DNA from: Gossypium raimondii
Taxonomy: Eukaryota; Streptophyta; Magnoliopsida; Malvales; Malvaceae
DNA: 64,000 nt
Assembly (NCBI RefSeq): GCF_025698545.1
Contig: NC_068567.1
Location: 59,153,371 to 59,217,370, forward strand
Direction of reading: 5' to 3'
In this document: positions 1-63,608 of the stretch, piece after piece
Position numbering within the stretch: the stretch's first letter is position 1
Layout: the number at the start of each line of letters is the position of its first letter
Translations under genes and position numbers: made by a program
Notes under the pieces: model-generated
What the model was told of the DNA's origin: nothing
The model's database searches: none
Seen by the model: the letters and a program-made list of their open reading frames with translations, nothing else

Positions 1-1308
1 CAATATTTCATAGACCTTTCTTAAAGCATAGCTAGATCGTATAATAGGTCAGAGTCACCATTTAATAACATAGATTATCCATATGGAGACACTAGAATAG
101 AGTCACCACTAGAAAGACACCGATAATCAACTGTATCACTAGAGGTTCCTTTAGGCATCGAATGTGACGACATCTATCAGACTGTCGTCAACTTGAGTTA
201 AGGGTGTCATAATATGAGTTTGTTATACGATGATAATTTCAAGTCAACATCCTTATGGATTATGTAAACACTGTGTTTTACTTAACCCTTAGGCACGCCA
301 AAAGGACTTATTTTCTCAATTATCTATGACTACTAACATTGTTGTACAACAAACTAATGCAACTTCTTCATACCAACAATTAGGCTATGCTTCAAAACCA
401 CCATTTAGGCCTCCTTATCAAATTTTCTAGGGCAGAGGTCCAGCACCTTCCGGGGGTTGGAGACAAAAAGGTCAAATGTGCGATCACATTGTTATCATCG
501 ATTTGACCAATCAAATGTTGGAATTTCAAGTACTCCTTTAGTTCCAAGGACCGCCAATCATTGTACCTTTGAGTTTGGGTTCTCACACAACTATAGCTAC
601 AATAGACTTGCATCAGATCCCTTTCATACAACTGAATTTCCTTTTGTAACTTTGGGTTCTCTAGTTCCAATGGTCTCATACTCACAACTCGAGCCTACTC
701 CTCAAATCCACTCTATTGTTGCAACTCCAAAAATGATCCATGATAGCGCCTAGTATCCCGATTCTAGAGCCACGAATCATTTCACCAATAATGTTTATTT
801 GACCAACTCCTCTCTATATCATAGTTCAAGTAAAATTTTGTTAGGGAATGGATGTAGTTTGCCTATTGCTAATGTTGGTCAATCATCTTTACTTATAAGA
901 ACTAGACTTTTATCTCTAAAACATTCATTTCATTTCCCTAACATTGCAAACAACTTGTTGTCAATATCTAAGTTCGTGTGGTTCATCAACTATATCTACT
1001 AGTATACTCATTAAGACTCAAGACAATGAAAATCTTTGTTACCTATCATCTTAACAAGATTCCCTTATAACATGGCACCGAAAAATGGGTCATTCTTCTC
1101 TTGAAGCTTTGTTATATATTTTAAGAGATTGTAATGAGTCTTTTTCTAGCAATAAAAAGTTGAACTTTTGTGTAGCTTGTAGACTTGAAATTCATAAATA
1201 TTGTTTGTTTTAAATGAAAAATCTTACAAAAAGTGTTCATAAATATAAATTGAAGGCTTTAAGGCAAATATCAAAAAATAGATAAAATGAATATAGCTAT
1301 GAAGTTTA
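1..1308 (+). mobile_element. Decayed Ty1/Copia polyprotein fragment (left part)
   Basis: Short plus-strand reading segments between about 300 and 1210 resemble a Copia Gag-Pol polyprotein in order. Near 760-1000 there is a protease-like block: a DSRATNHF motif, matching the D-S-G-A-T/S active-site pattern with the glycine lost, then a stretch typical of the protease to pre-integrase linker. Near 1085-1200 an MGHSSLEALLYIL segment followed by paired Cys residues resembles the GAG-pre-integrase zinc-binding module. Several stops and frame changes break it, so it is dead. The sequence is cut at 1308 by the LTR composite, and the GTTTA at 1304-1308 recurs at 4142-4146. No integrase, reverse transcriptase or RNase H is visible in the window, so this is only a fragment. 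Confidence 0.7.
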
Positions 1309-1564
1309 TGTAACACCCCTCAAATTTTGAGTATTTACTCTTGGGCAACAATAATTTTCTCACTTTTGCGATTTAATCATTCCTTGCATTAATATGTCAT
1401 AATATACTTCTCAATGTTGGCATAACTCAAAATTTCCCTTTTTGTTACTTTATTTCCTTATTTTACTATACCAAGGATAATATCTTACTGTAGGAATTTT
1501 CAAAATATTACATTTGTGGTCCCGAAACCACTATTTCGACTAGGCCCAAATTCGGGCTATTACA
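1309..1564 (-). repeat. Short Gypsy 3' LTR, minus orientation, beside a polypurine tract
   Basis: On the minus strand this reads from TGTAATAGCCCG to GGGGTGTTACA. The interior about 1318-1512 matches the terminal region of the solo LTR at roughly 20555-20770, with the same order of motifs (CAAATTTTGAGTATTTACTC, then a TTACTGTAG block). A run of seven C at 1569-1575 followed by CTTTAGGG is a polypurine tract on the minus strand directly upstream of the LTR start, which fixes the orientation. Confidence 0.6.
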
Positions 1565-2743
1565 ACTCTCCCCCCCTTTAGGGATTTTCGTCCCCGAAAA
1601 TCTTTCCAAGAGTAGTTACTTCCAGCTCTCATGAAACACTTTCACTAACATTTCAGAATCACTAATCGATTTAATCTCATATATCTCTTTCCAATAAATA
1701 TATCACTATATCATACTTTCTGAAATATATATTTTTCATTTCGACTATCCGTCTTCATACTCGTGAATACGCATGCTTAAATACATACAACTCAAATCAT
1801 ATCTCGATAAATCAGTTCACTCCAAGAAAACAATTGAGTTGATTTTAACTATCAAATATTAACATATCAAAGTACTCTGTTTTCTTCATGCTGAAAATAC
1901 AGCTCACACACACAATATTTCAAAATTCTTTTAGCATGCAAATCACCAGAATCACCACATTTTAGCTCTGGAATTTCATCGTAGCAAAACAATTCACTTT
2001 TTAAATATGCATACAAAATAGAAAAATAACCGATCACAAACCGGCCAATCCAATAGGGCTTTCGTCTGACATCATAATTAGCTAACATTCTCATAACATA
2101 AGAACTCCATTAGAAACTGAAAAATTATACACATATCTCTGAGGATAAAAAAAATATATATATAAAATATCCAGAAAAGACTATCATGTTCATTTTAATT
2201 GTAACCGTCACACACAGGCGTCTTTACCACTTAATTATCATTTCTCTAACAAATTTTGTTATCACGAACCTCACATTATTCCATTCACTAACAAAAATCA
2301 ATTCAAAAGAACTTCCAGTTAATACATACATTCTTTAGGTATCACACCTTAATATTTTGTCTCATCAAATTTAACTTCTTCTTTAGTTCACATTTATGAA
2401 CTTATTCAACATGATTCTCGTAAAAATTTCGTCATAAAGCAATACTGATAAGGGGGTGATGGTGAGGTCGTAAAACCTCTAACTTACTCTCATAAATTCA
2501 TATATATATGACTTAGCTTTCATCATCAATGTAATACCATCATAACCACATAGTTCATTCCAAGCAAATTAACACATCTATTTATTACAAATGTTTTATG
2601 TCACTCACAATTTCACACAACAAATTTACTTACTCGAGCTTAATATTAATATCTAATTAAATTCCAATACTTGGCTTCTATTTTACTTATCGACATTTGT
2701 CAAATTAGAGAACGTCTTACGGAATTGAGTACTTCGTTTTCTT

Positions 2744-2975
2744 GATGCCATAGTCCAACTATGGTCTTACACGTAATCACAAATCACATACCGATGCCAT
2801 AGCCCAGCTATGGTCTTACACGTAATCACAAATCACATACCGATGCCATAGCCCAGCTATGGTCTTACACGGAATCACATATCACTTACCGATGCCATAG
2901 CCCAACTATGGTCTTATACGGAATCACATAATCACATGTTCACATGTTGCCATGGTCAAACCATGGTCTTTTCCG
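2744..2975. repeat. 49-bp tandem repeat array within the LTR composite
   Basis: Four well-conserved units of about 49 bp begin GATGCCATAGCCCAGCTATG. Each contains the imperfect palindrome CCATAGCCCAGCTATGG and ends in an AATCACAAATCACATACC-like spacer. A fifth divergent unit follows (CCATGGTCAAACCATGG). The position resembles that of the palindromic repeats inside the related solo LTR at 18612-18850, so it is probably an internal LTR minisatellite. Confidence 0.8.
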
Positions 2976-4146
2976 TCAATTCATCACATATCACTGAACG
3001 AAAGTACTCATTCCTGCGTTCTACACAATTTAATCTTCCAATTCAATTTCCAGCAATTTGATTTTCTGCGTCACGGTCACTAATTTATTTTTATCTGGAG
3101 TTGTAGGGCTCCAAATTGAATTACGTAAATTTTCCTAAAAACTAGACTCATATACCTCTCCACCATAAAATTTTCAGCATTTTTAGTTGAAGAGTGGTCG
3201 GAACTGTCAGACAGCAAAATAGGGGAAAATTTAAAGAATAAACTGTACTATTTGGCTAAACCAAAAATTCTGAAAATTTTATAGCAAGAAGATATGTAAG
3301 TCTAGTTTCAGGGAAAGTTAACGGATCTTAATTTGGATTTTTGTATCTCAAGATATAAATGATTTAGTGACTATGACTCAAATGGACAACTTTGAATAAA
3401 TTTACAAGAAAATAGTGAAATTATAGACAATGTTACTTATAAGCAAGTTATGTAAATTAAGGATGTGGAATGGAGAGGAGGAGGAGGAAAATAAATTTAT
3501 GAATATTATGCTAGCATGGATTTGCATTTCAAATGGTTAATTTGCATGATTTGGGCTCGAGGACTAAATTGAGTAAAAGTAAAACTTTAAGGGTAATTTT
3601 GGAAAAATGTCAAAAATGACCAAATTGCATGAAATGAATTGTTTTATTATTTGAATTACTAAATTGAATGAAATATTAATTGAGATCAAGATTGGGTGGA
3701 AATTCAAGAAAAAAAAAGAAAATTTTCAAAATTTCCCTGAATTTTGGTATTTCTGCAATTTATCCTGGTAAGTTCGTATGAACTATATTTTGTATAATTT
3801 TAATTAAATTGAATGCTATTTGGTAATGAATATTATATATATGTGTGTTTGGAATTGAATTATTATTGGATGTTTTGAAATGATTATCGGAAGCTCGATT
3901 GGGTTGGAAGCTTGTTGGAGATATATCACATTATCTATTGGTTCTATCGGAAATTTTGGATGATTTGATTCTGGTTATTGTATAAGTTAAATTGGTTAAT
4001 GATTAGCTCATAAATGTTTTGATTTTGATTGGTTATAAATATGAATGTTTGATGAAATGAAATGTCGGAAAATTCATTTGTAAACTCCGGTAATGCTCTA
4101 TAACCCTATTCTGGGGAAGGATACGGGTTAGGGGTGTTACAGTTTA

Positions 4147-14186: not shown

Positions 14187-15353
14187 CGATACATAATTGA
14201 TAGATGCTAGAAAAATACCTTAGCAGGAGTATGTATATATGAGTTCCCACACATCAGAAAAAACTCTAATAACTCTTTACCACTCGGCAAGCTTCATCTT
14301 CTTCCTTCAATTTACCTCTTCACTTCCTCCTTCATTCACACCCTTTCTCATTGACTCACCTCCATCCACAGCCAACATCAACAAGCAAGATTGGTTTTCC
14401 TGTTAGGAAGCTGGGGTTTCTCTTTGTATTTTGTCCGTCACCATTGTTGAAGCCAAGTGTAACCTTCATATTTGTTTTCTTACAATTATATTAGCAATGT
14501 TTATAGGCTTTTCATAATGCTTTCAGCCTTGTTTTTAAAAAAAAAAAAAAACAGTGATCTTTTTTAATATAATAATACATCATTATAAAAGTGATTAGAA
14601 CTGTTTATGAGTTTTATATATCTTATTTAAGTCCCGACCAAACCAATACAACAATCTATTTAACCATTATAAAATATATTTTTATAATTTTCTATATTAA
14701 TATTTTATATTTTTATTATGCTTTTGATTCAATAATAAAATGATTTCTTTTAGTTTTCCCAAAAAAGAACGGATAGTCCGATCTTTAGATATCTACAAGG
14801 GATCGGATGTTTTTTTAAATATATCTGGTAATGAGCTGGAAGAACAAGGACATATAGCATTGTACTTAGCTTGAGAAAGGCTTGTAAGAAATTATAAATA
14901 GAATATCCACAAGAAAATGTGCTTAAGTGTCTTGGAAAATCCGAAAGCTGGTGTTGGAAATAAGGCAATTGGACCCCATTTGGGAGCAGAAGGATGTTGC
15001 ACTCAATTTAAGTAATATGTATAATTAAGATTTTGAAAATTCAATAAAAAAAATTTGAGGTTGAGAGATTAATTTAAATTTTGGGTTATAATTTAAAAAC
15101 TTCTAGTGCAATTAACCCTATATAATCATATGAGATAACGTCGTCTCCTTGTAGGGTTCTCAGCAATAAATTCCAAAAAGGAGACAAGTTGAGACATTAT
15201 TGTCCTCGTTTTTGCCTTCTTCAACAAAGATTACAGATAGCTGTAATGGAATTTTCCCTAGAATATTTTGATGTTTATGATGCAACCGCATACATTAATT
15301 TTTCCACCTCAACAGAGGAGAAGCAAACTCAATTTTCACTCAGTTACTGAGTC
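14187..15353. other. Intergenic; upstream region of the receptor-like kinase
   Basis: No complete gene seen. A pyrimidine-rich, leader-like stretch at about 14280-14460 looks like a plant 5' UTR but no coding exon could be attached to it. A TATATAA motif at about 15119-15125 could be a TATA box for the gene starting at 15354, though the leader would then be about 200 bases. Confidence 0.4.
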
Positions 15354-17326
15354 ATGGAGTCGCCGCAGTTTCCCAAATATCTTCTTTTCGTCATCCTTTT
15401 TTCACTCTACAGTACTTCCATCGCTCAATATGAAGAGGAAAGGGATGCTCTATATGCTGTCAAGCACACTTTCAATGATCCATTCTTAAATGATAACTGG
15501 AATGGCCTTCAATGCTATGAAAACACCTCTTTTTGGTATGGTATTCAGTGCACAAATGGCCGTGTCACTGCAATATTATTGGAAAGTAAGGGATTATCGG
15601 GCAAAATAAATGCCGATGCATTTGTTTTGCTTTCTGAATTGGTTACCCTTAGCTTCAAGAACAATTCTTTGTCAGGGAACATAATGGATTTCTCATCCAA
15701 TCCCAAGTTGAAGGATATCGACCTGTCGAAAAACATGTTTGATGGGCCAATTTCACGTTCACTTCTTAGTCTTAACTTGTTGGAATCGTTGCAGCTTCAA
15801 GATAATCATTTAACAGGTCCAATCCTAGGATTCGACCAAACCAGTTTAACATCATTCAATGTTTCCAACAACAGTATAACCGGTCCGATTCCGGGAACTG
15901 ACACACTGAGATCGTTCAGCTCTGCTTCGTACTCCAGCAACGGCCCCTATATGTGTGATGATTCATCGAATTCCAGTAGCGGTTGTTATTTTAGTGAAAA
16001 CGAAACAGCGGGAGGAGGAGGCTCCAAAAAGGAACCTGTTTCCACTGTATTTATAGTTTTCGATGTGCTTGGCTTACTCGCTGGGATTTTGCTTCTATTT
16101 CTTTACTGTAAAAAGTCCAGGCAGCTAAAGAAGCTGATTCAAAAATACCAGCTTGAAGAAAAAGATGAAGACGATTTAGAGATGGAAAGGATGAGTAATT
16201 TTCATTACAATGAAAGCAAAGATGAAAGCGTTATTATTTCTGCAGAAGTGAATAATAGATCTGTTACAAATGAAGAGAAGGGGAAACTTATATTCATGGG
16301 GGACGAAGACCAAGCAGGTTTTGATTTGAACGACCTGTTGAGAGCTTCTGCTGAAGGATTGGGTAAAGGGCTTTTCGGCAATAGTTATAAAGCTACATTG
16401 GATGGCAGACCGTCTGTTGTGGTGAAACGCTTGAGGGATTTAAAACCATTGAGCTACGATGAGTTCACGGAGGTGGTACGGATAATTACAAACCAAAAGC
16501 ATCCCAATTTGCTTCCTTTGCTCGCTTACTTTTATTCCAATGATGAGAAGCTGTTCCTTTACAGATATGCCATGAATGGAAACCTCTTCAACCGCCTTCA
16601 TGGTGAGATAATTAAATACTGTTGTAAGTTGCAACTTATTTTTGTTGTTTTTTATAGTTTTTTTTATGAAAAATTGCAGGAGGGAGAGGAACAAGAGACC
16701 GGATTCCATTGAGATGGAACTCGAGATTAGCCATTGCTCGAGGGGTGGCTCGAGCAATGGAATATCTTCACCTCAATCCCAACTCCAAATGTATTGTTCC
16801 TCACGGGAACCTGAAACCGTCCAACATTCTCCTCGACGGAAACGACAACGTTCTCATCTCCGATTACGGTCTGGCTTCACTCGTAGCCGTTCCCATCGTA
16901 GCACAACGACTGGTGGCATTCAAGTCACCGGAATACCAGCACTCGAAACGCATTTCAATGAAATCCGACGTGTGGAGTTACGGTTGCTTTCTTCTGGAAC
17001 TACTAACAGGAAGACTATCAGCTCACTCAGCACCACCAGGGATCAATGGGGTGGATCTTTGCAGTTGGGTTCATCGAGCTGTTAGAGAAGAATGGACAGC
17101 TGAAATATTCGATATTGAGATATCGGTGCAACGAAGTGCGGCTCCCGGAATGCTGAAGCTGCTGCAGATTGCGATACGTTGTTGCGATAAGATACCGGAG
17201 AAACGGCCGGAAATGACGGAAATTGTGAGGGAAATAGATAGCATCAAAGCCGTTGATTCAGACGATTCGGATGAATTATCTGCGGATCAATCGTTAACAG
17301 ATGAATCTTTCTCGGCTAATGCTTGA
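15354..17326 (+). CDS. LRR receptor-like kinase (subfamily III type), probable pseudokinase
   Basis: A plasma-membrane receptor-like protein of 631 residues. Exons are 15354-16602 and 16680-17326 with a 77-bp GT-AG intron, phase 1; an intron inside the kinase domain is usual in this subfamily. Order: signal peptide (residues 1-24), LRR N-terminal cap with a W-x-G-I-x-C motif (61-66), about five LRRs (72-180), a short Cys/Ser-rich juxtamembrane piece, a membrane helix (about 229-252), a basic then acidic stretch, and a kinase-like domain (about 330-600). The glycine loop LGKGLFG and the Lys in VVVKRL (358) are kept. The HRD catalytic loop is HGNLKPSN (458-465), without the catalytic Asp, and DFG is DYG (478-480). 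This matches LRR-III proteins called probable inactive kinases, so it likely signals by scaffolding. The ligand is unknown. ATG 15354 directly precedes the signal peptide. Confidence 0.92.
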
Positions 17327-56479: not shown

Positions 56480-57018
56480 ATACTCATGATCATTAATGGG
56501 GTAATTTCAATTTTTAAACTTGGGTGGGTGATTTGTGATAACTGAGATCGATATTGGGGTTGCAATTAGTTGTTTATGTTAGGGTGGATTGAGCTTAAGC
56601 CAAGACTCCGCAGATGTAAAACCCTTGTGTTTGAATTGCGTTAACAAATACAGGTTGTATCAATTATTTTTTGTTCTTATTTTTTACATTATATGTTTTT
56701 GTTCTAATTGTCGTTACAACGAATATTAAGCAAAAATAAGTTATCATATTTGTAGGCTAATTATTTTTCAGCGTTAAAACTAAAAAGATTTTAAAGATAA
56801 TATAGTACATTCATAAACAACACTCATCTTTTAACCCGTATCAAACACAAAATAAGAAAAGCAATAAATATCACAATTTTTACAACTAAACACCTTGATA
56901 CGATAAAATCTATCTTTCATCCATCTTTTAATACTTAAGTAATTTAATACATCAATCCTCTTTTACATTCGCTGTACCAAACAAGGTGTAAGGGCTTATG
57001 GTGTTATAAAGATGAAGG
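56480..57018. other. Intergenic, no gene seen
   Basis: AT-rich sequence between the short MITE and the Mutator-like element; no coding pattern. Confidence 0.5.
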
Positions 57019-57027
57019 TGAAGATTG

Positions 57028-57240
57028 GGGTTTTTTAGCAAAATATTATAAGAAAAATGAAATATTACCAAAATATAATAACTTTTTTTTATTTATCAAA
57101 ATAAAACTTTTTTTATTTACGAAAATATATAAAAAAAAACTGCAAAAAGCCTGTAAAAAGCTGGAAAAGCGGGTCAGGCCAATGCCATTGGCGGCACCAA
57201 TGGCGCCAATGCCATTGGCGGCACCAATGGTGCAATTTTA
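57028..57240. repeat. Left terminal inverted repeat of the Mutator-like element
   Basis: Pairs with 61275-61490. The outer part is AT-rich (AAAATATTAT motifs), the inner part GC-rich: GCCAATGCCATTGGCGGCACC occurs twice in direct repeat (about 57178 and 57207), each holding the palindrome GCCAATGCCATTGGC. Confidence 0.8.
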
Positions 57241-57985
57241 ATTGGCGGCACTCTCGTATTATAAGTACCAGCTCTATCCAGCTAAAGGGAGAAAAATCAG
57301 AAGCAGAAAAAAAAAAGGAGAGCCGCGGAAAAGAAGAGAAAAAGAAGGTATTTTTTAAAAAATAATTGATTATATTGTTGTTATTGTTTTGTATATTTTG
57401 TAATATTTTTTGTTTTAGTTTAGTTATTAAGATAAAACTCAAATTGATAGTTTTAGTTAGTATTACTATTATTATTTATTGTTTTTGTTAGTATTAAGAT
57501 GTAACTTAGTAGCATTATTGTAAGTAAAAAACTAGTATTATTATTATGGTTAGTTATTATTTTATTTACCAAAATAAACTAGTTAGTAAAACACTAGTAT
57601 TATTATTCTAGTTAATTAGTTAATATTTCTAGTAAAACCTTAATTATTAATTTTAGTGTATATTATTTTGAGTATAAAATTTTTTGACCTAATGTTGACA
57701 AATTTTTTGTATATTGTTATAAAAGTATAATTCATTTGAAATAATTTTATTATTCCGCTTATGCTTATGCTTAAATTATATCCAAATTGTATCCAAATTA
57801 AGTTATAAAATACCATGTGCGCATTTGAAATTATTAAAATTATATCGACAATAGAGGCATTTATAATTGGATTCAGCTTTAATATAATGAAAAAATAGAA
57901 TAATTAAATCTATACAACAAATTTCAGAAGTAAGCAAATATTAAATTAGAAATATTAAATTTATACAAAAAGTGCCCTAAAACCC

Positions 57986-59856
57986 CTAAAATTGATGGTT
58001 CGATGGTGTTGTCCTAGGGGTATACCTATTTGGAGGTCGACGATCACGTTCTGAGCGACGACCAACTTCATAGTTCGGCGCAAGTGGGGGTGTGGCAAAC
58101 GTAGAGGAAAAATCATCATTCGCCACCGACAAACTTGATCCGGAATGAGTTCCATGATGCTGTGGATACGGATCGAACGGGTCAGGCATGCCGTACTGCG
58201 GCGGGTGGTTTCCGAATAGTTCAAATTCGTAGGCATATTCTGTCGATTGCGCAGCGTACATCGCCACCGGATCCGGATCCATCGGGCCTTCAAGTTGCTG
58301 CACGTGCGGGAGGATTATAGTCAACTGCCCTCCAAGTAGATATGACTTCCTGCAACTAGAGTACCATCGTATATACTCTAATGATGGTTGCAGGTCGGTA
58401 GCCGGATCCATCTGAGGCTTTCGGCACAATCGGTCGTTCCATAGTGCAACAAATTTCCGGTGTTTAATTCCCCAATCCATTTGAAATTTTCCTCTTTTAT
58501 TCATGTCGTGAACTTCCCCCAGTTGGCATGGCGGATTCGGGATAGGTTGGATGCAGCCAAACTGCCGTAGCACCCGATCTCCGTTATACCACTCGACTAC
58601 GTTGAAATTGATAATTGGTGCGTTAGTGCACCATATGTGGGAATCAACGTACACGGACGAGGGTACAACATTTGTGATTTCCGGTCGACGGTATGGCATC
58701 CATATAAATTGCATGATTAATAACATTGTAACGAGTTAGTGCCACAACGTCTGAGTAAGATATAGAAATAGAATATATGTCATGAATATTAGAATAGCAT
58801 CTTACCCCATCCCGGGCATGCTGTTCAATCATTAGGCGATATATCGGGACATCATACGACTTCCCGATGCCTGGACGAGCAGTCCACCTACAAAAAATAA
58901 TATAGGGTTTAGGGTTGGTAACATTATTCAATATATTATGACTACAAAATAATGACAATTTATACTTTATCACCTGAGTGGCAGTGGATACAGATATAGT
59001 TGGTGACTAACGGATGCCAAAAACGGCATCCGATAAAGTGCCCAGGACTGCAGCAGTATGAGGCATCCGCCGATGTCATGGACTTTCGGCTTTGTCGCCC
59101 GACAAAGCTCCCGGTACAACATTGCCAGAACGGCGGAACCCCAGCTGTACGATCTAGCAGTGGACAAATTAGCTAATAGGGGCAAGTACATCAAATGCAC
59201 ACTATCGCCGTTTGCATCAGGCATGAGTACTGCCCCTATCATATGCATGATGTACGCTCGAGCAGCGCACATCAACTCACCTTCACTGGCATTCGCTGAT
59301 AATTGTCCAATTTTGGCTTTCAGCCATGTAAATTTTAAGCCGGAAAAATACGACTCACCATCCTCTGGCGAGTCATCAAGGAGCTGATAACAAAGCGCAG
59401 CCGGATCCGTGAATGAAGATACTCCCGTTACGGGACTCCCGTCAATTGGAAGCCCAAGCTGCAATGCAACATCCTCCAATGTCACCGTGCACTCCCCGCA
59501 CGGAAGATGAAAAGTGTGGGTCTCCGGGCGCCACCGCTCCACTAGCGCAGATAATATATCAAAGTGCAAGTCAGAGGACCGAATCAATGCTACTGACCCA
59601 AATCCGGCTAGCTCCAAATATGACATCAATCGTGCATCCGAAGCTATCCTTAAAACACTCACACGGCCCCTTAATACTCGAAACGAGTCCTGATAGTGTT
59701 AAATTACAGCAAAATTATTACGATAACATAATTTATTTGTATATACTGCGTATTTTATTTTTAAATAAATAGAAATCGTGATTAACAAATAATAAATCAT
59801 ACCTAGTTATTAGCCGCATCAGATATGTGTTCATCGTTTCCAATCACTCGAGCCAT
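57986..59856 (-). pseudogene. Plant mobile domain (MAIN/MAIL-like, 'PP7 long form homologue') gene, broken
   Basis: PMD proteins occur in hosts (MAIN, MAIL1 in silencing and genome stability) and in transposons. Minus-strand exons: 59856-59803 (MARVIGNDEHISDAANN), 59689-58974, 58887-58806, and about 58708-57986. The core has all family landmarks: YLELAGFGSVALI, LSALVERWRPETHTFHLPCG, TVTLEDVALQLGLPIDG, AYIMHMIGAVLMPD, RSYSWGSAVLAMLYRELCRA, GCLILLQSWALYRMP. The last exon continues FIWMPYRRPE, DRVLRQFGCIQPIP, and ends in an RG/P-rich tail. Two lesions appear. The last codon of exon 1 is TAG, directly before the GT donor, where CAG would be expected. The last exon has no AG acceptor at the conserved join (TGCAA before TTTATATGG); the next upstream AG brings in a stop. 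The gene is therefore probably inactive, unless translation starts at the internal ATG in MSYLELAGF and cryptic splicing is used. It fills most of the Mutator-like element. Confidence 0.88.
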
Positions 59857-59869
59857 TGCGATGCCTGCA

Positions 59870-60247
59870 AGTTGAAAAAAAAGTTAGTAAAAAAATCGAG
59901 CCATTTGTTCATATTTTTTTCTCCACTTTTTATTCTTTTAAAAAAATATCATAATTTCTAATTTTATGATATTTTAAAAAATATCATAATTTCTAATTTT
60001 ATAAACTTATTAAATGTGTGTGTTATTTAAATTAATTTTGTGTAAGAAAATAACCCTTACCCCTGCCATTTGCTCGTATTATTTTCTCGATTTTATTACT
60101 TTCAATAAAAATATATTAATTTCGTTCTTTATTATTTTATATTATTTCAAAGACATTTTCTTTGAAATATTTTGTATTAATTATTTCTGAATTTTAAAAA
60201 ATTTAGTATTACGACACTCTTACTTCCATAATTTGTTCAGTATTTTT
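59870..60247. repeat. AT-rich direct repeats upstream of the PMD gene (first copies)
   Basis: ATATCATAATTTCTAATTTTAT occurs twice in a row (59945-59966 and 59979-60000, each within a slightly longer match). A unit starting TTTGCTCGTATTATTTTCTCG at about 60069 recurs in diverged form at about 60435 and 60595. Confidence 0.6.
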
Positions 60248-60414
60248 GGGTTTTCTACAAAATATTATAAGAAAATAAAATTTTACCAAAATATGATAAC
60301 TTTTTTAGTTATCAAAATATAAATTTTTATTTATCAAAATATAATTTTTGGTAAATCAAAAAAAGTTTATAATATTTCGTATTTTTTATTTTTTGTAATA
60401 TTTTGGTAAAACCC
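60248..60414. repeat. Palindromic mini-element related to the terminal repeats, nested in the Mutator-like element
   Basis: Starts GGGTTTTCTACAAAATATTA and ends TATTTTGGTAAAACCC; the two halves are inverted copies of about 80 bp. Both resemble the outermost 80 bp of the large element's terminal repeats (GGGTTTTTTACCAAAATATT). It interrupts the direct repeat series. No clean target duplication was found. Confidence 0.6.
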
Positions 60415-60429
60415 AAAATAAACCCTTTT

Positions 60430-60710
60430 CCCGCCCTTTGCTCGTATTATTATTTTCCGATTTTTATTACTTTCAATAAAAATATATTATTTTCAGTATT
60501 TTATTATTTTACATTATTTCAGTCCATTTTGTTTCAATTTTTGTATTGATTATTTCTGAATTTTTTAAAATTTTACTAAAACACTCTTACTTGCCATTTG
60601 TTCGTATTTTGTATCCGCATTTTATTATTTTAAAAATATCGTCATTTTAATTTTATCATTTTACATTATTTCAATGCATTATGTTTGAGATTTATTACAT
60701 ATACAATTTT
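60430..60710. repeat. Direct repeats, second and third copies
   Basis: Units beginning CTTTGCTCGTATTATTATTT (60434) and ATTTGTTCGTATTTTGTATCCG (60596) share with 60069 the order CGTATTATT..., TTTATTACTTTCAATAAAAA, ACATTATTTCA and ACACTCTTACTTG/CC. Confidence 0.6.
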
Positions 60711-61020
60711 TTTGCATTTTATTATTTTCGTGAATATAGAATTTCCGTTTTTTCTTTTCGTATTTAATGTTTTCTTAAACATATTTCTTTATCATTTTAC
60801 TTTTAATGCTATTTTCCTAAAATAACTAATTTCAACTTCCTAAGAAAAATTCATAAAAAAATCCTAATCAACATACAATGTACATACCATAACATAAATA
60901 CGTATAATGTACATAACATTAAAATATATATGCTAAATAAAATATTAAAATACGTATAATATAAATAACATAAATTTTAACATACAAATATTACAAAAAT
61001 AAATTTATAATAAAATTACC

Positions 61021-61258
61021 TTTTTTTCCTTTTTGAAATCTTTCCTCCCTCTTCTTCTTCTTCTTTTTTTTCTCTTCTCCTTTCTTTCTTTCTTTTTTTC
61101 TTTCTTTTTTCTTCTCCTTTCCTCTTCTTCTTCTTTCTTTTTTTTCTCCTTTCCTTTTTCTTTCTTTCCTCTCCTTCCTTTTCTTTCCTTTTTCTTTCTT
61201 TCCTCTCCTTCCTTTTCTTTCTTTCTTTCTTTCTTTCTTTCTTTCCCTCTCCTTCTCC
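61021..61258. repeat. (TTTC/CTT)n polypyrimidine tract
   Basis: About 240 bases almost purely C and T on the plus strand, ending in a clean TTTC run (61212-61245). It lies just inside the right terminal repeat, upstream of the PMD gene. The long open frames in it (61016-61278, both strands) are composition artefacts. Confidence 0.92.
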
Positions 61259-61274
61259 CCCCAGCACCGGTTGG

Positions 61275-61490
61275 CTAGCCTAAATAAGGCCTTGGTGCCG
61301 CCAATGGTATTGGCACCATTGGTGCCGCTAATGGCAGTGGCCTAACCCTGTTGGTGTAGGCTTTTTCAGCTTTTTTTTTGTTTTTTTGATATATTTTCGT
61401 AATTAAAAAAATATATAATATTTTGGTAAATAAAAAAAGGATAATATTTTGGTAAAATTTTATTTTTTATAATATTTTGGTAAAAAACCC
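61275..61490. repeat. Right terminal inverted repeat of the Mutator-like element
   Basis: Reverse complement of the left repeat, including GGTGCCGCCAATGG and GGCACCATTGGTGCCGC palindromic motifs at 61291-61330 and the AT-rich outer part ending GGTAAAAAACCC. Confidence 0.8.
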
Positions 61491-61499
61491 TAAAGATTG

Positions 61500-63608
61500 G
61501 GGGTGATATTGGTTTGGTTCAGTCGAGCTTCAGAGATTTTTTGAGGCAACCATCCTAATTCGGTTTGGCTTGATTAAGTTCTCGATTTTTCATATTAATT
61601 TTTTATTTTGAATCTTTACTCTTATTTTGACAAAATAAATTTTGTTTTATAGCTTTTAGATAAAAAACTAAATTTAATATATATTAAATAAAAAATAAAT
61701 TTGCAACCGTAATTTTAAAGTTTACATTTAATAAATCATCTAAATATATCAATTCGGATCAATTTTCAATTTTTAAAATTTTACTACTTAACATAGTTGC
61801 AATCACTAACTTAAAAAATGCATGATTAATGAAATCTCCTAATCTCTCTTTCAAGGGTGGAGCTAAAAAAAATTTGGGAAGGCGGAATAAAATTATATAT
61901 TTTTATGATAACAAAAATAAAATTTCACCATTTTAATAACCTACATCTTTATAATAAGGATTAAAATAATTTTTCTCAGGATCACAGATTTATTATAGTA
62001 TTAGGCTCAACAAATCGTGTAAGGTGGTATCACAGTTCCCAAAATATGCTAACAAACAACAGCTAAGTTCTTAATGAACCTTTGGGGGTAAGGAATACCA
62101 CCAAGATCGTACCACTCCCTTCAAAATAGTAATGGAATATGGCATTGTAAGGGATCTTTGATGCCGCATATACCATGGAAATACCTAAAATGATTCAAGT
62201 GATCTGCAAGACTATTACAAGTTTCTGAATAAGCTTTTATCTTGGTGGTATTGGGACCTATCAAACAATCATGGACAATGGGTTGTTTTATACATCTAAC
62301 CACTCGTAATCATCCTTAAATGATTGTTTCAATTCCTTAAACTTTTGCTTTAGGATTGCTACTTGTTTGACTAAAACAGGACCAACACATGGGAACTGTT
62401 AATCATGCTAGTGGTCGAGGAAGTGCCTGGTTTTATCTTTGTTGTCAGGGAGTTGGTCGATTTATTATTGTTTTTTGTTTATGGTTTGTTGTTGTGAGGC
62501 CAATGTGTTGAATAGGAATCGTATTCTGGTCTGGTATCGGGAGTGGAAAATTCGCTGTTATTGAGCTGATGTAGAGGGAAAGGTGGTATAGTCGTAGGGG
62601 CCCTAAAAGAAGACTTGGGAATGGTAAAAGGACTAAAAGTGCCTGGAGTCATGTAATTGAAAATTTAGATAAGCAAGCCAATTCCACTTCAAATTATTGG
62701 TTAAAATGCACCATAGGTCCCTATATTATTTGTAAATTTGAAATCTAGTCCATATACTTTTATTTCTAAGAATTTAATCTATTTACCTTTCATATTTTAA
62801 AATTAAAAAAAAACACTTAATAGCAAAGTAATTGAAAAATTGACTTCATGATAAATATGAATTTAACAAGATAATTTTAATAATGTTAACGATTGGACTA
62901 AACTTTAAAATCTAAAAAACAGATAACTTAAATTTTAAAATAAAATATAAAACTAAATTTTAAATTTATGAAAAATGAAAATTTATTTCATAATTTAACC
63001 ATATTTTTCAAAATTTTAAAATGTTAGTACATGTAGATCGCACATTCATTTTCGTACCCAATTGTATTTATTTTTACACCTAATTTCAAAGTGTTAGGTT
63101 GAACTTGAACGTGATAGTTTTTTTTCTCCTTTTATCAAATATCGTGATTTTATTTTAAATTAATCTACATTTTGTATTATTATGTAAATGACTTTTAGCT
63201 GTTTAGCACTTCAGTATGTACTTTAGGTAAATTGCACCATACATCCCCAAACTATATAGTATATTATAAATTAATCTTTAAATTTTAAAACAAATTAAGT
63301 AATTCTTAAAAATATTAATATCATTTCAATTAATCCATTCTGCCAATACAATTATCAGCTTAAGTATTGGAAGTTGACTTAGATATCACATAAAATATAT
63401 TTAAAATACATATAATTAAATATTAATTATGTGTAATTATTACGTAAATAACTTAAGTTTGATGTGTATGGGATATGATATAAAGCACACTTGAAATACA
63501 TAGATGAAATTTTAGATACATGTACTTATTATATGAATAGTTTGAATTTGATGGTTTGAAAAATAAAAAATATTATTAAAATTTAAGAGTTTAGATTCAA
63601 ACTGGTAG
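61500..63608. other. AT-rich intergenic DNA with repeat-like pieces, no gene supported
   Basis: No gene could be recognised. Around 62705-62975 a weak inverted repeat (AAATCTAGTCCATATACTTT against AAATTTAGTTTTATATTTTA in reverse) suggests an old MITE. A CAAGGGTGGAGCTAAAAAAA stretch at 61853 resembles one end of a hAT MITE like that at 10580, but no second end was found. Confidence 0.45.

Follow-up and report, generated by a model that had tools for sequence, protein, structure and literature searches.

Has a transposon with a plant mobile domain (PMD) gene but without a transposase taken up a host-type regulator in place of its mobility enzyme, or has it lost an enzyme that its relatives still hold? 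The question is raised by positions 57028-61490 of a 64,000-nucleotide stretch of the Gossypium raimondii genome (NCBI RefSeq assembly GCF_025698545.1, contig NC_068567.1, positions 59,153,371 to 59,217,370 of the forward strand; hereafter the window), which form a Mutator-like element (MULE) of 4.46 kb with one Pfam-recognisable gene, the PMD gene. This element is very probably a non-autonomous copy, shortened by an internal deletion, of a two-gene MuDR-type MULE family, a reading that covers its identity and history only. At the level of sequence, comparison with sister copies establishes the anatomy, the target duplications, the convergent pairing of the two genes, the deletion, and a constraint on PMD in step with that on the transposase.

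The terminal inverted repeats (TIRs) of about 200 bp reported in a first-pass annotation of the window are 81% alike between 57028-57227 and 61292-61490 and score 183 bits against each other in BLAST, compared with 39 bits or less for any of 281 further window blocks. The target site duplications (TSDs), described there as near-perfect 9-bp repeats, agree at 8 of 9 positions. The ends are as follows.

57028..57240, plus strand: left TIR (81% to the right TIR; at least 42 genome matches)
61281..61490, minus strand: right TIR (by alignment with the left TIR)
57019..57027, no strand: left TSD, TGAAGATTG (8/9 match to 61491-61499)
61491..61499, no strand: right TSD, TAAAGATTG (8/9 match to 57019-57027)

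Two-gene sister elements and the missing block

The genome (750.8 Mb, 281 contigs) was searched with the left TIR, resulting in at least 42 matches (40 scored of 637 candidates), several of them as facing pairs, and 20 sister stretches, drawn from contigs C1-C13, were taken for comparison. A PMD gene and a transposase region occur together in L009, L010, L015, L018, L021 and L027, that is, in all six sisters that hold a PMD gene, with PMD opposite the transposase within one element; L014 has a transposase region and a partial PMD. Two of five transposase pieces of L021 exceed Pfam cut-offs (DBD_Tnp_Mut, 5.9e-6; MULE, 4e-12; Transposase_mut, 1e-8) and the other three have no Pfam match over cut-off, while the one piece of L010 that was scanned matches SWIM (2.5e-6). 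The fuller copies are about 7.2 kb, with long TIRs, the transposase running from the left end and PMD from the right, convergently. The family thus combines long TIRs, TSDs within the range usual for MULEs (8-11 bp, mostly 9 bp) and a MuDR-type transposase in sister copies, and the window element lacks the transposase of its own that an autonomous MULE has.

The pairing holds across the genome. Searches with PMD exon 2, PMD exon 4 and the N-terminal part of the transposase gave at least 151 (150 scored of 4829 candidates), 228 (150 of 2900) and 114 (113 of 4240) matches, respectively; the transposase match left out (C6:49137404) is a second fragment of a counted locus. With exon 2 matches alone, a PMD lies within 8 kb of at least 59 of the 113 transposases, and with the listed exon 4 matches added at least 78 have a PMD exon within that distance; every pair is convergent (59/59 and 78/78). 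Random placement (1000 rounds) yields a mean of 0.98 pairs and a maximum of 5, and the observed counts are lower bounds, among the matches listed. Because both genes stand together in the sister copies, the family has PMD as its normal second gene. The first-pass annotation had suggested looking for a sister encoding both a MuDR transposase and the PMD protein; sisters with both genes exist, as the six elements and the 78 or more convergent pairs attest. Its suggestion of a host-type regulator borne in place of a mobility enzyme is not supported, since the sisters carry both genes and a single deletion removed the transposase from this copy.

That deletion is visible against L021. Window positions 57028-57684 correspond to positions 1-591 of the L021 element, after which the correspondence resumes at position 3438 and continues through the end, leaving a block of about 2.85 kb (L021 element positions 592-3437) absent from the window. 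As the transposase frame of L021, which contains stops, spans element positions 748-3441, essentially the whole transposase coding region is gone. Smaller differences from L021 are about 73 bp fewer near 58240 and about 97 bp more at 60248-60343. Since PMD occupies the same place in the two-gene sisters and one block is missing, the window element is read as an internally deleted copy, in which the following parts of the transposase side remain.

57241..57684, plus strand: 5' portion of the transposase side that remains, up to the deletion junction at 57684 (window 57028-57684 corresponds to L021 element 1-591)
57684..57985, plus strand: from the junction, the transposase stop codon onward and the gap between the convergent genes (resuming at L021 element 3438)

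When the entire window is searched with four sister transposase pieces, nothing matches at E 0.001, in agreement with the first-pass statement that no transposase is visible; searched against the element alone, the same pieces give one 20-amino-acid match (E 0.001) inside the PMD region. The junction reads ..AAAATT TT TTGACC.., and a 141-bp junction probe is continuous in one of 40 scored matches (236 candidates), the window itself, with the other 39 ending at the junction (position 71). The genome search with the terminal repeat, proposed earlier as a way to other full-length copies, found sister elements; the junction probe crosses the window's junction in none of the other 39 scored matches, and an amplified PMD-only subfamily with the same deletion is rejected as far as tested.

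Among the matches listed, 91 PMD loci have no listed transposase. The three that were read (L054, L055 and L056) are TIR-ended, with TSDs of 9/9, 8/9 and 9/9 by eye, and keep PMD exon 2; each has mostly lost the transposase, of which fragments remain, and L054 also lacks PMD exon 4. Because three different deletions are involved, transposase loss is recurrent. In the window copy the block may have been lost through faulty gap repair or end joining, and the copy could still be mobilised through its TIRs by the transposase of a sister.

Structure, constraint and role of the PMD gene

Three minus-strand open reading frames (ORFs) of the element were scanned, and two exceed the PF10536 (PMD) cut-off of 34.9 bits, at 58970-59698 (E 1.3e-51, 176.3 bits) and 57986-58735 (E 4.5e-15, 56.1 bits). 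No other Pfam family passes its cut-off in the three ORFs (DUF1985, DUF7745 and rve_2 match below it), which agrees with the earlier description of PMD as the sole recognisable gene. A search of solved structures returned a single weak match, to lumazine synthase (E 0.0033 over 57 residues), which was taken as chance. Comparison with sisters yields a model of four exons (54, 716, 82 and 723 nt) with consistent phases.

59803..59856, minus strand: PMD exon 1 (54 nt; ATG at 59856, last codon TAG; sister alignment)
58974..59689, minus strand: PMD exon 2 (716 nt), open (Pfam, 1.3e-51)
58806..58887, minus strand: putative PMD exon 3 (82 nt; splice signals and reading phase)
57986..58708, minus strand: PMD exon 4 (723 nt), open and ending in a stop codon (Pfam, 4.5e-15; alignment)

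The TAG of exon 1 aligns with GCG, GAG or AAA in those six sisters where this stretch is present (L018 is without it, and the frame of L015 is shifted by an upstream indel), and the acceptor before exon 4 reads GCAA in the window and GCAG in all six sisters with the region. With an exon 1 stop and one lost acceptor, the PMD gene of the window looks broken; a normal protein is unlikely to be made from this copy, although a later ATG or another acceptor may serve. The first-pass annotation had asked whether transposon-borne PMD proteins interfere with host silencing or help an element in trans, and for the latter the window copy is a poor candidate, as its gene looks broken.

Selection was assessed as the pairwise Nei-Gojobori ratio of nonsynonymous to synonymous divergence (dN/dS). 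Among six close sisters, dN/dS is 0.45 for PMD exon 2 and 0.61 for the transposase, with wrong-frame controls of 0.71 and 1.11 for PMD exon 2 and 0.61 and 0.78 for the transposase; the first 145 codons of exon 4, window included, give 0.28. Over 15 PMD copies the ratio falls with growing distance (0.62, 0.45, 0.36, 0.19 and 0.14); each of the 24 pairs in the two deepest bins involves L039 or L040, which are not established as lying in MULEs, and 14 uncomputably distant pairs all involve L041. The 12 copies that remain when these three are set aside (66 pairs) give 0.63, 0.45 and 0.36 as dS climbs to 0.7. In ten two-gene elements (45 pairs; the PMD of L009, whose best frame is shifted, was dropped), successive dS bins give 0.62, 0.50 and 0.39 for the transposase and 0.61, 0.50 and 0.39 for PMD, with one further PMD pair at 0.29; pooled values are 0.49 and 0.42, respectively. 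Transposase and PMD distances are correlated (Mantel r 0.76, a value reached in 0 of 5000 permutations). Given the shared dN/dS trend and the joint divergence, PMD looks like a working gene of the element.

Several observations weigh against reading the family as a set of two-gene elements under common constraint. Among the matches listed, 35 of the 113 transposases have no PMD nearby, and the description of the fuller copies as having both genes appears to reflect gene presence, not full intactness. In the six close sisters the transposase dN/dS equals the lower of its own wrong-frame controls, and the dN/dS pairs are not independent of each other. Mean dS in the same elements is higher for PMD (0.328) than for the transposase (0.212), so the two halves are either imperfectly co-inherited or mutate differently.

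With the identity of the element settled, the PMD protein probably works for the element, as it travels with the transposase and follows the same dN/dS trend. In intact copies it might, more speculatively, act in the nucleus as an accessory factor through which the element stays expressed. The leading candidate role, advanced here tentatively, is counter-silencing, in which the element's PMD would compete with or mimic the host MAIN/MAIL-PP7L complex. MAIN/MAIL1, which are PMD relatives, act in gene expression and silencing (PMC5418596, PMC7156037). An anti-silencing role of PMD was speculated upon in Ikeda 2017 (PMC5418596), where PMD-transposase fusions are described in MULEs of grasses and Amborella, and was likewise suggested in a 2021 review (PMC8616336). 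In VANDAL elements VANC is an anti-silencing factor (PMC6446971, PMC13317346, PMC8616336).

A slightly less probable role is one in transposition itself, by integration or regulation of the transposase and not against silencing, as proposed for maize mudrB (Dupeyron 2019, PMC6446971). It would suit a PMD gene that lies in the same convergent place as mudrB and is constrained equally with the transposase; against it, the PMD relatives MAIN/MAIL1 work in gene expression and silencing, and the likeness to mudrB drawn here is one of position. Sequence cannot tell this role from counter-silencing, and other roles take the remaining probability. The broadest proposal, which we consider unlikely, would make PMD an obligatory partner gene in a large MuDR-type family of this genome, selected as strictly as the transposase and acting as a decoy of MAIN/MAIL-PP7L, and thus a non-VANC anti-silencing system that has spread with the elements and is the source of many annotated eudicot PMD genes.

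That PMD is instead a roleless passenger in decay is very improbable. Stops or lost splice sites occur in many PMD copies, that of the window among them, and dN/dS is about 0.6 among close copies, as a passenger would have it. However, the ratio drops with depth as it does in the transposase, the start of exon 4 is more constrained still, and exon 2 is lower in frame than in either wrong frame; on this trend and these controls the passenger was rejected. The pattern fits a PMD gene kept in an active lineage while single copies decay.

Host PMD genes and known elements

A Pack-MULE, that is, a transposase-less MULE with a captured host PMD gene, would also account for an element without transposase, and gene capture is frequent in MULEs (Dupeyron 2019, PMC6446971). 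It is nevertheless a highly improbable origin, contradicted by the two-gene sisters, which have the same PMD in the same place and retain the transposase, and by a window PMD just 42% identical to the single-copy PMD gene of contig C7. Used as a query, that gene (C7:19288618-19289283, L033) finds itself and then 149 listed matches at 39-45% identity (3967 candidates, 150 of them scored), and the scored matches include no close paralogue. C7 thus holds one single-copy gene facing a large cluster of transposon type, as far as these matches go, and at such identities the window PMD is not a recent capture of it.

A PMD tree with transposon and host clades had been proposed in the first-pass annotation. 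Among the 28 PMDs of the tree built here, that of the window clusters with L021 and L009 (97/91) inside an eight-row family clade (100/99), and the family together with the C7 gene is split from four other PMD genes (on C1, C3, C13 and C11; 100/100), with a long-branch warning (C7 branch, 1.16) and with MAIN/MAIL sequences outside the tree. L019 was dropped and L014 cut to 193 amino acids, and the tree does not say which way capture or domestication went. The labels 'MAIL-like', for the C7 gene, and 'PMD-B' are presumptive. A PF10536 search of 14 control genomes gave no match; there is apparently no plant among them, which makes the result uninformative on MAIN/MAIL.

Two further PMD groups (L034-L038 and L039-L040) were observed, one beginning close to Pfam model position 11 and one consisting of 239-amino-acid frames. 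Weak DUF1985 matches below cut-off (E 0.0004-0.0016) occur in L042:16-717, L041:17-721 and L033:19-684. DUF1985 is located beside Ulp1 proteases in other MULEs. A remote kinship of two MULE accessory proteins, of PMD and DUF1985 type, is possible.

Maize MuDR has two convergent genes between long TIRs and a 9-bp TSD, the second gene being mudrB. The present family resembles it in the convergent gene pair, the long TIRs and the 9-bp TSD and differs in that the second gene, in mudrB's place, is PMD. Dupeyron 2019 (PMC6446971) gives MULE groups 42 and 45-50 as PMD-bearing, with PMD in antisense for most members of MUDR group 50 and 'often antisense' in MUDRAVI2 group 49, with Gossypium raimondii among the group 50 hosts. 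The family is like groups 49/50 in its SWIM transposase, 9-10 bp TSD, long TIR and antisense PMD, a likeness of layout, and the window copy is unlike them in being without transposase. The elements of Ikeda 2017 (PMC5418596) are likewise MULEs that bear PMD; theirs is fused to the transposase, whereas here it is a separate gene on the opposite strand, in a eudicot. VANDAL elements, too, are MULEs with an accessory gene ('PMD and/or DUF in half the members'; PMC6446971), but their TIRs are absent or short and degenerate, with exceptions, and those of the window family are long. Host MAIN/MAIL1 share the PMD family and form a small cellular gene family, in contrast to the multicopy element gene described here.

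Since Dupeyron 2019 and Ikeda 2017 report PMD-bearing MULEs, this kind of element, a MULE with antisense PMD, is already known and was tabulated in 2019, cotton MULEs included; the figures for pairing, co-divergence and constraint come from the present analysis. In the excerpts of the literature examined, no test of selection on PMD genes of MULEs was found, and one may exist. The convergent pairs, together with the low identity of the C7 gene to its listed matches, suggest that many PMD genes in such eudicot genomes are transposon genes, which bears on the statements in Ikeda 2017 (PMC5418596) that place the capture of PMD by MULEs in grasses and Amborella and in Nicolau 2020 (PMC7156037) that eudicots contain mainly genic PMD-C.

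Target duplications, flanks and minor features

A flanking match of 8/9 or better arises in 152 of 400,000 random 9-mer pairs of the window. Of 19 family elements checked, window included, 14 carry duplications of 9 or 10 bp that differ at one position at most; L012, L015, L019, L023 and L026 are without such a TSD, and L026 shows 8/8. The empty-site comparison proposed earlier gave no second locus, as among the listed flank matches (40 and 50 rows, by eye) none but the window holds both flanks. The chance that the two TIRs are ends of different insertions, which the 19% difference between them, the one TSD mismatch and the absence of an empty site among these matches might suggest and which would have undone the first-pass reading, is negligible, because the element is collinear with the single sister L021 at both ends, which makes both TIRs one insertion, and the family has good TSDs. 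The flanks 56628-56982 and 61500-61662 resemble dispersed genome repeats (66-90% identity), at different places.

One internal feature derives from the TIRs.

60248..60411, no strand: internal TIR-derived block, with TIR-like sequence in both orientations (alignments)

Its right half (about 60319-60411) corresponds to sequence lying some 1 kb inward of the right end in several sisters, and secondary alignments suggest direct repeats of about 200 bp beside it. L018 has two tandem TIRs, at 2551 and 3295, each after the 9-mer TGATTTTCA, which recurs past the far end. L011, L013, L016, L020 and L025, which are TIR-ended, 1.2-1.9 kb long and flanked by 8/9 or 9/9 TSDs, have no PMD match and are short non-autonomous relatives of the family. 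Elsewhere in the window, at 15351-17326, two overlapping ORFs resemble, by eye, a leucine-rich-repeat receptor-like kinase gene.

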